Below are positions 4,396-59,908 of a stretch of 64,000 nt of DNA, in pieces. Numbering within the stretch: the first letter of the stretch is position 1; the number at the start of each line of letters is the position of its first letter. This DNA comes from Bryoerythrophyllum caledonicum (taxonomy: Eukaryota > Streptophyta > Bryopsida > Pottiales > Pottiaceae). The stretch is from positions 4,208,678 through 4,272,677 of the forward strand of contig OZ020515.1 of the NCBI GenBank assembly GCA_963971425.1. The letters run 5' to 3'. The notes beneath the pieces were generated by a model, which was not told the DNA's origin, did not search any database, and saw only the letters and a list, made by a program, of their open reading frames with translations. The translations under genes were made by a program, and so were the position numbers.

Positions 4396-7300
4396 ATGGC
4401 CGCCATAGCTAGGGTTTCAACCCTCCCACTCCTCCTGCTCCTGCTCCTGCTGCCTTTCCCCGCCGACGGCCGCTCCGCCGGCTCCGTCCCGGAGCTCGAG
4501 GCGCGCATGTACGCCGCCCTTGCGGGCTCGCCCTGCGTGCGCTCGCTCAGCTTGAGCGGGGAGCTCGGGTGCGGCAACCCGGGGCGCGCGCTGGCGGACG
4601 CGCCGATCCGGAGGGCGGGCGGCGGGGAGAGGCTGGACGCGCCCGCGGCCGTGCTGGTCGCCGCGAGTGCGTTCCTGGAGTTTCTCGATGCCGTCAGAGA
4701 CGATGAGAACGTCGTCGGGGTGCTGGTAGAGAATGCGACGGGGAGCCCGGGGTTCGGAGGCTCGGACGATGCNNNNNNNNNNNNNNNNNNNNNNNNNNNN
4801 NNNNNNNNNNNNNNNNNNNNNNNNNNNNNNNNNNNNNNNNNNNNNNNNNNNNNNNNNNNNNNNNNNNNNNNNNNNNNNNNNNNNNNNNNNNNNNNNNNNN
4901 NNNNNNNNNNNNNNNNNNNNNNNNNNNNNNNNNNNNNNNNNNNNNNNNNNNNNNNNNNNNNNNNNNNNNNNNCTCCTGCTGCCTTTCCCCGCCGACGGCC
5001 GCTCCGCCGGCTCCGTCCCGGAGCTCGAGGCGCGCATGTACGCCGCCCTTGCGGGCTCGCCCTGCGTGCGCTCGCTCAGCTTGAGCGGGGAGCTCGGGTG
5101 CGGCAACCCGGGGCGCGCGCTGGCGGACGCGCCGATCCGGAGGGCGGGCGGCGGGGAGAGGCTGGACGCGCCCGCGGCCGTGCTGGTCGCCGCGAGTGCG
5201 TTCCTGGAGTTTCTCGATGCCGTCAGAGACGATGAGAACGTCGTCGGGGTGCTGGTAGAGAATGCGACGGGGAGCCCGGGGTTCGGAGGCTCGGACGATG
5301 CGGCGTTCCCGCAGGCGGAGTTCGCGCCGTATGAGAATCGGTCGTGGATTTGGAATTCGGCCGCGTCGGGGATGCTGCAGCGGCGGTTTGATTTCCCCGT
5401 GTTCCTTCTCTCTCCGGTGAGTGTAGGTGGAATCCGGATTGCGATAATTGCTCGGTTCTCGTCAAGATTGTTACAATCACTAAACAGCCGTCGCGAGATT
5501 TTTGCACTCGGTTCTGCAATTGAATGCTCTCGTGAACCGAGATATAGTTGAATGTTCTAGGATTGTGAGGATTATGCGACAATCTTGTAACGAATTGCGA
5601 GAATTGCACGGTCCTGATCAAGATTGTTGCACTCAACAGCCGTCTTCATAAGATCGTTAATCTTTAGATCACTAAACAACCGTTGTAAGATTGTTGCACT
5701 GTGTTCTATAATCGAATGCTCTCCTGAATTGAGATGTTATTGAATGCTCAAAGACTGAGGATTATGCAACGATCTTGTAACGGCTGTTTCGTGACTGTAA
5801 GATTGCTTCTAACTCAGCGAATCCTAGGGTTTAGGGCTTTAGTGTTGCTGCGCATAGGGAATAGAGTGTTGATAATTTCCTAGTGCTTCCATTAAGCAGG
5901 CAACGTTTCTGGTAGGAGACATGTTATCATATGAATGCACGCTTTAGGGAACTGATTTATTCATTTGATTCAAAGCCAAGAAGATAGCTGACACTGAGAT
6001 TATCTGTAAAGTAAGGCAAAAATACCATGAGTTTTGACCTGTTTCTCATTTTGTAGCAATCATCAAATAGCGCTATTATGAAGCAAAACGTAGGATATCT
6101 TATTGAAACTTTAGGTGACTCTACAAATAACTCCTCTATTTGTGACGGTTCTATTTGCTGCAGGAAAGCACAGTGCTGGCGCAAAAGCTTGCATTAGAGA
6201 ACGCCAAGAACGGGTTCAAGATGCCTACACATGTGGTAGAATTCAACGATATCATGCAGTCGACTAAATCCGGGACTCATACATCAGAGTCATGCTTGCG
6301 GGAGCTCTCTTGTCTTCCTTTGGGAGGTTACAGTGTAATGTCAACTTTCCCGGCTGTCAACGTTTCGGCTCCAGTTGTGAAGCCCGTGGTAGTGGCGATG
6401 GCGTCCATGGATTCCGCCACTTTCTTTCGTGATGTCGCGCCTGGAGCCGACTCTCCAATGTCAGGTCTGATTTGCACTTAAATATAATGAATGCTTCCTC
6501 TTAGATAGATGGTTTGTTCTTATGAGAACTCCGAATTGCCCAAAAGTGTCCATTGTCGTAGCTTATTCTTTCGAATACAGAAACATCTAGGAAGGGGTTG
6601 AATTGTATAGAAGGGAGAGAAGAAAGTTTACCTACACTATGGGGTAGTTTGAAGTTTTTTTGCTATCTAATGGAGGTCTATATATCTCAACTGCTGAATG
6701 GTTGCTGAATATTCTACTTAATGTTTGGGATCTCGCCGTTTCAGGTGTGATAGCGTTACTTGCAGCGGTGGATGCGCTATCTCACGTTGTTGGCTTCAAC
6801 GAGCTTCCTAAGAGACTTGTCTTTCTTTTATTTACGGGGGAGGCTAGAGGCTACTTGGGGAGCCGACAGTTCCTTGCTCAACTGAAGAACAACACCTTTG
6901 TAGATTATGGACTGACACCCCGATTGATACAAGAAGTTTTGGAAGTTGGTTCGGTGGGGCGAGCGTCACGGTCCACGTTCTTTGCCCATAAGCAGGCCAC
7001 GGCAACAGCTGCTCCAACTCAACAGATGCTTGACTCGTTGCAAGCGTCGGCTTCTTCGACTTCGTCCATTTTAAAGCTTGCTAGCGCCACCAATCCGGGG
7101 ATTCCGCCCTCCAGTCTCATGACATTCGTGCACAACGATCCTACAATTTCTGGTACGTGAGACATCTGCCTCATCTTTGGTGTGAATTCTGCTTTGCCTT
7201 TCATCGGGTATCTAATGTGAAAAGAGCTCAAATGGTTGTTCTGTGTAGGTGTTGTCATTGAAGAGTTTGACACCGCCTATGTAAATAAGTATTACAATAG

Positions 7301-57682: not shown

Positions 57683-59908
57683 TCACCAGCAAAAGTTAAG
57701 GGACTGTTCGAGCGTACCAGTTTGCGATGGTAGCATTGAAGGGTACACTTTTTCTGTCATGGGAGTATAATTTCGATTCAGCATCGTGTCCCTCCAACTC
57801 TGCAAATGGCCATTCTGACACAAGTTAGAACAACCAAGAGGTGGACTTGACATTTTATAACCGAATTATTAACACAAGTGAAATTTACCATGCCAGGAGT
57901 TCGTAACGATGGAGTTTCCCAGGCAGATGGCCCTTTCATCGCGGACTGCATTCGGTAAGCCGCAAGAAATTCATCCCAACTCAATTGCTCGATGTCCTTC
58001 TGCACATTATGAAGCGAAGAGCGTGAGCAGAAGGTTGTTGCAAGGAACTTGACCGAAGACCTCGCCGAAATCCACATACCTCGCCAGCTAATTGATTGCT
58101 GACGCCTTCGCCAATAAACTCTTTCACTGCGAGCAATCAACTTCGTCAGAAACCTGAACAGTAAAACTCGGAATCTGTTCAATACTCACAAGGCAGTTAG
58201 TCATTTCTCTTTTTACTCATGGGATAAATCCATGAAGTCCTGTAGCATCTACACAACCGAATATGTTCAGATTACACAAAGGATGTCAAAAAGCCTCAAC
58301 ATGCTTGAATTGCACTCAGAATTTGCATCGAGAAAGTCTTGTAAAAATGTGCCGATGTTGTAGAAAAGTACGAGCATAACAAACACAACCACATACGAGA
58401 GTCTCTCTCGTATATGGCTGAATTTGTTGTGTTCGTACTGTTCGGTACCATCCTTTCAATTCTACAAGGCTTTCTCGATGCATGTTCTGAGTGCGATTCA
58501 AGCATGTTAAGGCTTTTGACATCCTTTGCGTAATCTGAACATATTCGGTTGTGTAGATGCAACAGGACTTCATGGATTACTCCCATGAGTAGAGAGAGAA
58601 AGTACACACGAGCAGGACGAGAGAAGTATATACATTACTAGAGAGATAGCACAATTGGCAAACTGTTTCGCGAGAGAACATTCCCAATAAGATGAGGAGG
58701 TGCCGACGGTACTTGTTTGAGACGGCCCGAACCCGGGCGTGTTCTGCACGGACGCGAAGCCCGGAGTGCTCCTGACGTTGTTGAACCCCGGCGTGTTCCG
58801 CACAGACGCAAACCCGGTGTTGAAATTCAAGGTGCTGAAATTCAGAACGCCGCATCCGGGAGGCTGCTCCTCCACAAGGTCGACGAAGAGCGTCCCGTCC
58901 AACCTCGTGCTCACCTTCGTGTTGGGGCAGTGCTGCCTCAGGAACTTCTTCATGGGCATCTTGCGGATGTGCTCCGGGAACCTGGAGATTGCCAGTTAAC
59001 ATGACATTCAGGACCAGGAAAACCTTCTCTTTTCTGATCTAGGATGTAATTGAGTTTCTTCATGTGATCCTATGATCCTGTTTAGCACAAGTAGACGAAG
59101 GAGGGGTGAATCACTAACCTGGATATCAAAAGTTTGAGCTGCGTCGTGGCGCTCGCCATGTGCCCGTCGCCAATGGCGACAATAGCCGCTGACCTCGACT
59201 CAACTGCAAGGAGGCAATGATACCATGAGTTTTGACCTCTTTTCTTAAAATCAGCTCTAAACAGAGTCAATAAGATACCCCTCTTTTTCGAAATTGAGTT
59301 CTCGAATCAGAGAAGAAGAAAGGATTTCTCTCATGAAAACTCTGTCTTCACTCAAACTTGTCGGTACGGAATATAACTCTATTTCTCGCAAACTCTGTTG
59401 TTACTTGCGGTATGAAACATGACTCTATCATTCGCAGTATGAAATTCTTGCAGTGTGAAAGATAACTCTCCAATATTTTCAGCATGAAATATCACCCTCC
59501 ATTATTTGCAGTACGACAATGAGAATTCTCTCTCGAACCTCTCCAATGTTTCCAAAAACCTCGAACAAACCCTGAAACCTCTCTCTCTCTCTCTCTCTCT
59601 CTCTCTCTCTCTCTCTCTCTCTCTCTCTCTCTCTCTCTCTCTCTCTCTCTCTCTCTCTCTCTCTCTCTCTCTCTCTCTCTCTCTCTCTCTCTCTCAAACT
59701 TCACCACAAGAGCCTCACCTTCCTGGTCCACAGCGTGACACACCAAGTTGACAATACGCAGCTGCTCCTCCAAATCCTCCGCCCGCTCCTCCTCCTCCAC
59801 CTCCTCTACATCCTCCCTAACCTCCGCCTTCACCGCCACGACGTTCGTGTCCTTCTTCCCCAACGCCTTCCGCCCGCCCGTCGTCGTCGCCTTCTTCGGC
59901 CGCCCCAT
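57683..59908 (-). CDS. Borealin-like chromosomal passenger protein
   Basis: Borealin links INCENP and survivin in the chromosomal passenger complex that guides Aurora kinase in mitosis. Minus-strand exons: 59908-59719, 59203-59119, 58981-58713, 58126-58080, 57999-57889 and 57799-57683; all phases agree, 272 residues against about 280 in human borealin. A basic lead ([20 protein letters not shown]) precedes a helix ([20 protein letters not shown]) and [19 protein letters not shown], which resembles borealin's EILRLPKALREM segment. Three NTPGF-type repeats and a later SLRTPGM recall borealin's TPGL motifs. The C-terminal domain is weakly similar at best. Intron 3 contains a long foldback and intron 1 a (CT)n tract. 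Family assignment is likely but not secure. Confidence 0.55.
58215..58590. repeat. 376-bp foldback (inverted repeat) in borealin-like intron 3
   Basis: The segment is a near-palindrome centred near 58403. The outer 130 bp of each arm agree at roughly 93% by eye (CACAACCGAATATGTTCAGA versus its complement). Pairing continues inward more loosely to GAGAGTCTCTCTC at the tip. The transcript would fold into one long hairpin of about 185 bp. Confidence 0.85.
59225..59295. repeat. Intron-resident repeat fragment in borealin-like intron 1
   Basis: ATACCATGAGTTTTGACCT (also at 6025 in nicastrin intron 1) is followed by GATACCCCTCTTTTTCG. Confidence 0.55.
59581..59696. repeat. (CT)n microsatellite, about 58 units
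   Basis: Uninterrupted CT run just inside the first intron of the borealin-like gene, 20-odd bp after its donor; it gives false Glu-Arg or Ser-Leu open frames. Confidence 0.98.

Follow-up and report, generated by a model that had tools for sequence, protein, structure and literature searches.

Stowaway and other Tc1/mariner-type miniature inverted-repeat transposable elements (MITEs) of plants, such as BRAMI-1, are short, AT-rich and dispersed, carry terminal inverted repeats (TIRs) and a TA target-site duplication, and are tolerated in introns; the Stowaway TIR begins CTCCCTCC. MITEs of the mPing/Tourist (PIF/Harbinger) type also carry TIRs and avoid exons, and their target-site duplication is the three-base TWA. 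Introners, described in Micromonas and other organisms, are non-autonomous TIR elements present in many introns, some of which consist almost entirely of the element. In the available portions of three reports, 71 of 697 copies (10.2%) of the TA-type Brassica MITE BRAMI-1 lie in introns (PMC3626606), introns rank behind promoters and downstream regions as sites of MITEs in three plant families (PMC12550479), and no land-plant introners are reported from the 3,325 genomes of a survey (PMC9860276). Here we analyze a 64,000-nucleotide stretch of the Bryoerythrophyllum caledonicum genome (contig OZ020515.1, positions 4,208,678 to 4,272,677, or G000:C2:4208678-4272677; hereafter the window), in which an earlier note had recognised a short repeat in the introns of several genes, and we describe the element to which this repeat belongs.

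The repeat represents a new transposon family of a known kind, which we do not claim to be unpublished. We consider it probable that this is a MITE-type family that underwent an old burst, inserted into introns that already existed, and is now concentrated there by loss elsewhere. The earlier note had proposed either an introner or a MITE that tolerates introns; the inverted ends, the TA flanks, the dispersed copies and their two orientations all point to the MITE, and introner activity is not supported as a general explanation. The pattern is a striking relic, and not good evidence of intron-making.

Structure and age of the element

A search of the assembly (437 Mb, 894 contigs) with one window copy, a 331-base query from the nicastrin gene, in which 40 of 681 candidates were scored, gave at least 51 matches on many contigs, the query itself included and some being second pieces of one place. 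Identities were 69–86%, the higher values belonging mostly to short pieces. The exception is a 97% match on C11 (G000:C11:7074380-7074710), which covers the whole query including a few flanking bases and is possibly a duplicated nicastrin locus. Sixteen of the scored places, chosen for their length, were fetched together with flanks of at most some 190 bp; L045 has a flank on one side only. Together with a copy in L024 and the full-length window copy, they align across nearly the whole consensus, with the left end partly gone in L039, L042 and L045 and the right end apparently lost in L037.

The majority consensus of these 18 copies has 313 bases and 34% GC, and its ends are inverted repeats that match at 47 of 50 bases and begin GAGTTATTTG after TA. 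This dinucleotide, which makes up 5.2% of those in the window, adjoins the left end in 9 of 14 cases, the right end in 7 of 16 and both ends in 4 of 12 (readable ends, judged by eye), and the target-site TA has decayed at the others. Copies are dispersed genome-wide in both orientations. TIRs, target-site duplication and dispersal are those of a MITE, and indeed the family is like Stowaway and BRAMI-1 in being short, AT-rich and present in introns, although its TIR start is not the CTCCCTCC of Stowaway. It is also similar to mPing/Tourist-type elements in size, TIRs and avoidance of exons, but differs from them in its two-base duplication. These features fit a non-autonomous DNA transposon of about 313 bp, with TIRs of about 50 bp, probably mobilised by a transposase of the Tc1/mariner type. 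We note that an open reading frame with a DDE_1 transposase domain (2e-24) lies at 11444-12544 of the window, possibly as part of a pogo-like element; the element model has no match near it, and no genome search for an autonomous partner was made.

Kimura two-parameter distances (K80) to the consensus averaged 0.189 (range 0.146–0.288), and pairwise distances among the 18 copies averaged 0.360, with a lowest value of 0.244. Pairwise distances are thus about twice those to the consensus, which fits a single old burst followed by independent decay, and, unlike in introners, there is no near-identical pair. Identity was 76–89% in every 20-base bin along the element, so that no constrained core is seen.

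Intronic copies in the window and elsewhere

A profile model of length 312 was built from the 18 copies (the 16 fetched, the L024 copy and the window copy 7931-8238), and window matches were counted at E<0.01. A first model, seeded on window introns and their flanks, took in a second dispersed repeat (CCTAAAGGA...AAATGGGCTTTTGAAA...TTCCTATGGTGTCAATTTCC), which lies at 29499-29600, adjoining the intergenic element copy, and again at L029:910-1007; the model was rebuilt mainly from copies elsewhere. With the rebuilt profile, 12 window loci match one family (Table 1), the full-length nicastrin copy being among the training copies, and in the 354 kb searched, when reversed or locally shuffled as controls, the best match had E=3.7. 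Alignment to a consensus sequence put ten of the 12 loci 6.5–14.9 standard deviations above 100 shuffles. In one pairwise comparison between copies, the borealin copy was barely above shuffles.

Introns in the window were placed by splice sites and reading frame, and the host genes have Pfam support from partial, hand-joined exons: nicastrin (5.8e-60), vasohibin (3.8e-39), DRE2/CIAPIN1 (2.8e-20), P450 (1e-36), PAP2 for LPP (1.7e-27) and Nbl1_Borealin_N for borealin (6.1e-7). Ten of the 12 loci are intronic, two each in nicastrin and DRE2, three in the vasohibin-like gene and one each in P450, LPP and borealin, which confirms that pieces of one repeat lie in introns of six named genes, and shows that two DRE2 introns are affected where one had been listed. 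If introns or genes are assumed to occupy 15–33% of the window, the chance of at least 10 of 12 being intronic is 3e-7 to 5e-4. The remaining two are a copy at 25413-25545 that the earlier note had overlooked, which stops 51 bases short of a likely 87-nt exon (25597-25683, placed from just its splice sites and a single open frame), and the only clearly intergenic window copy, which contains the related intergenic end previously noticed at 29650-29690.

The four motif strings that had defined the repeat are found with 0–4 mismatches at or near the places given for them. Pairwise and profile searches unite these pieces, and the copies align beyond them over longer stretches: the motifs are real, and correspond to the left part only of the element. 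In the longest window copy, the motif AAGATACCCCCTCTTTT forms the inner portion of a TIR beginning GAGTTATTTGTAAAGTCACCC. The mixed orientation, and the description of the 145-nt LPP and 167-nt vasohibin-like introns as mostly repeat, were borne out as well.

Individual placements differ in their basis. The nicastrin intron 7859-8309 rests on splice sites and frame, and the Pfam match does not span its junction; in the upstream nicastrin intron the acceptor alone was placed (6163), and the fragment there matched on both strands because the TIR is inverted. The inner part of copy C is duplicated and occupies most of the P450 intron (aligned over 35474-35782). Copy A, matched at model positions 30–210, also has an inverted TIR match (41627-41673, E=0.006) and a lenient alignment over 41627-41811; its intron lies in the protein tail, outside the Pfam-matched part, and rests on splice sites and frame. 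The copy B intron separates ...SFPSGHTS from WTFAGLSY, with a donor placed by hand from the sequence, and the spliced protein gives a PAP2 match that runs across this junction. Within this intron, the model match is preceded by 12 nt and followed by 22 nt.

Table 1. Copies of the element in the window (z, standard deviations above shuffles; sense and antisense relative to the host gene)
Feature	Position	Strand	Match and context
TIR-end fragment, upstream nicastrin intron	6080..6133	-	E=1e-6; other strand 8e-8; z=7.5
Full-length element, both TIRs, nicastrin intron 7859-8309	7931..8238	-	model 1-310 of 312, 258.7 bits; antisense
Copy D, last DRE2/CIAPIN1 intron 15725-15982	15766..15826	+	E=4e-10, z=8.4; splice sites; antisense
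Copy in DRE2/CIAPIN1 intron 16058-16278	16072..16184	-	E=2e-4, z=9.1; CIAPIN1 match spans junction; sense
Right half of element	25413..25545	-	E=0.005, z=9.2
Left part of element, intergenic	29602..29692	-	E=1e-7; outside the shuffle-tested set
Copy C, P450 intron 35431-35784	35501..35759	+	three model matches, best 1.5e-12; z=14.9; antisense
Copy G, vasohibin-like intron 39520-39843	39664..39754	-	E=4e-17, z=12.5; antisense
Copy E, vasohibin-like intron 40274-40693	40579..40672	+	E=8e-4, z=6.5; sense
Copy A, 167-nt vasohibin-like intron, nearly all element	41629..41795	+	model match 41642-41791, E=3e-16; z=12.9
Copy B, 145-nt LPP/PAP2 intron, mostly truncated element	45501..45645	-	model match 45523-45633, E=5e-12; z=14.3
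Degenerate copy, borealin-like intron 59204-59718	59246..59353	-	E=3e-4; z=6.8 minus strand, 2.9 plus strand

Among the 16 fetched copies, five have Pfam-supported exons alongside and nine more appear intronic by eye, with L035 and L040 uncalled; in L040 the copy is followed by an apparent inverted second copy (by eye). In L038 (ribose-5-phosphate isomerase, 3.8e-22), L039 (SHMT, 4.2e-11) and L043 (ABHD18, 3.6e-10), joining the exons that flank the element gives a continuous match to a single Pfam domain. The nine by-eye loci (L030, L031, L033, L034, L036, L037, L041, L042 and L044) show fitting splice sites, often with one in view, and open frames. Protein searches of these loci other than L033 and L044 gave nothing better than E=0.0066, a PDB search with one short exon peptide gave no match, and an NCBIfam search with eight exon peptides gave weak zinc-ribbon-type matches to one alone.

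Longer stretches were sampled as well, amounting to 290 kb: 210 kb of C1 (21 loci), a single 10-kb stretch from each of C2 and C3, and six stretches of C4, two of which were taken beside the first match. A profile scan found no convincing copy in the 210 kb of C1 or in the 10-kb stretches of C2 and C3; on C4, L024 holds a full copy and L027 another copy. A 27-nt relic lies in a 137-nt intron (L024:8330-8356; first model, E=0.0016 and 0.0023; rebuilt model, E=0.12), and two copies stand head to tail in one 680-nt intron (L026:1846-2251, by eye). The empty C1 sample had suggested a family confined to the window, which the copies on other contigs rule out.

Both splice sites could be named for seven copies outside the window, three of them with Pfam support. 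Distances from donor to element were 80, 20, 1, 62, 19, 139 and 142 nt, and those from element to acceptor 75, 55, 57, 50, 46, 76 and 117 nt. In six of the seven, the element ends therefore lie 19–142 nt from the donor and 46–117 nt from the acceptor, and in L039 the alignment begins 1 nt from the donor and stops 57 nt short of the acceptor. The introns hold 58–259 nt of non-element sequence, and in four of them (L033, L038, L043 and L044) TA flanks the element on both sides, inside the intron. Element ends come from lenient local alignment and may be off by some 20 nt; since this alignment overruns into exon by 22 nt for copy G and by 30 nt for copy E, any one distance below about 20 nt is weak evidence in either direction. 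That six of seven copies have further sequence between the element and either splice site indicates ordinary introns with an insertion, unlike introners. The expectation that introns might coincide with repeat edges thus failed in these six, where splice sites are at least 19 nt from the element ends; in L039 the coincidence is one-sided, and window intron A comes close to it at both ends.

Retention in introns or targeting to them

One old burst would have carried the element into pre-existing introns and elsewhere; selection would then have removed exonic copies, retrotransposon turnover may have erased intergenic ones, and deletions would have pared some copies and their introns to little besides the repeat. 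We infer that retention of this kind is the preferred, if unproven, cause of the intron bias. The sampled C1 sequence is rich in transposons (by eye), so that old intergenic copies would be overwritten and intronic ones kept. If the bias reflects retention, introns archive transposon bursts whose intergenic copies have vanished. The family offers a concrete case for distinguishing among intron bias, retention and intron birth.

Several observations weigh against this interpretation. The share of intronic copies in the sample is far above the 10.2% of BRAMI-1, in the part of that report available (PMC3626606), so that mere tolerance may not explain it, and the family differs from BRAMI-1 also in being old and decayed. 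The 16 fetched copies are the long ones among the scored matches and a non-random sample, and for 9 of the 14 copies called intronic the basis is splice sites and open frames judged by eye. Exons are one-sided and just under the Pfam cut-off in L045 (phosphorylase, 2.5e-6) and L032 (TAB2-like, 1.9e-5), and the SHMT exon frame of L039 reaches an in-frame stop at its far end, so that this locus may be a pseudogene. Finally, the aligned edges of A, C and L039 lie within about 2 nt of the donor (12 nt for B), as in introners, and copy A is introner-like at both ends.

The main rival holds that the MITE transposase actively targeted introns or transcribed chromatin, in place of random insertion followed by loss; we regard this as possible, though rather unlikely. 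It would account for the large excess, with up to 14 of the 16 fetched copies and 10 or 11 of the 12 window copies intronic, most by splice sites and frame. The least diverged copies (L030, L031 and L032; K80 0.146–0.157) also look intronic, and 210 kb of transposon-rich C1 are without a convincing copy, though the genome search lists two on this contig. Against it, MITEs of three plant families are found more in gene flanks than in introns in the available part of that study (PMC12550479), and all 18 measured copies are old (K80 0.146–0.288). Because of this age, targeting and retention are inseparable here.

Introns that consist mostly of the element

That the element carries splice sites and created introns by inserting into exons is improbable. 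Such an origin would fit introns A and B, which are nearly all repeat, as well as copy A, whose donor lies at the TIR edge and whose acceptor is aligned to GAGCTGATTTTAG of the element body. By eye, a usable donor (TTTGTAAAGTCA) can be read in the TIR and acceptor-like TTTTAG ends in the body, and TIRs are present in 72 of 177 introner families with ends that could be judged, in the portion of the survey available (PMC9860276). The distances in six of the seven resolved copies argue against it, as do the two orientations, the absence of introners from land plants in the same portion of the survey, and copy B, which is without either element end (model 37-115 of 312).

Introns A and B are truncated copies of the element, and deletion of spare intron sequence explains the copy B intron. 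For copy A (41629-41795), the splice sites may have been taken from the element. The old TA-type MITE could, on this basis, occasionally have made an intron, here by a coding insertion in the vasohibin-like gene, with the donor at the TIR edge, the acceptor in GAGCTGAT...AG of the body and the rest of the element as exon; we hold this to be doubtful. Targeting, or even one element-born intron, would bear on intron gain in the green lineage, because the survey, in its available part, found no introners in land plants (PMC9860276).

A conserved functional intronic element, either a splicing enhancer or an intron-encoded RNA, would explain why short pieces such as the 27-nt relic are still recognisable in much reduced introns, but is very improbable given the flat conservation, the star-like divergence, the two orientations and a window without Rfam match or tRNA. 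A SINE (short interspersed element) or RNA-gene origin was rejected on the last of these grounds, TIRs being present instead.

Other features of the sampled DNA were recorded along the way. Identical 300-bp blocks (4444-4743 and 4973-5272) flank a run of N at what appears to be the beginning of nicastrin, and may reflect an assembly duplication at the gap. An open reading frame of 600 amino acids at 38-1837 carries DUF7869 (5e-49), which we take to be a transposon-associated family, and L005 presumably holds a chloroplast cytochrome-assembly gene, which, like the TAB2-like domain of L032, fits a host among the green plants or algae. A short dispersed repeat (ACTACACTAAA...) occurs at 20146-20235 and 51176-51265, 80% identical over 90 nt and with inverted symmetry by eye.

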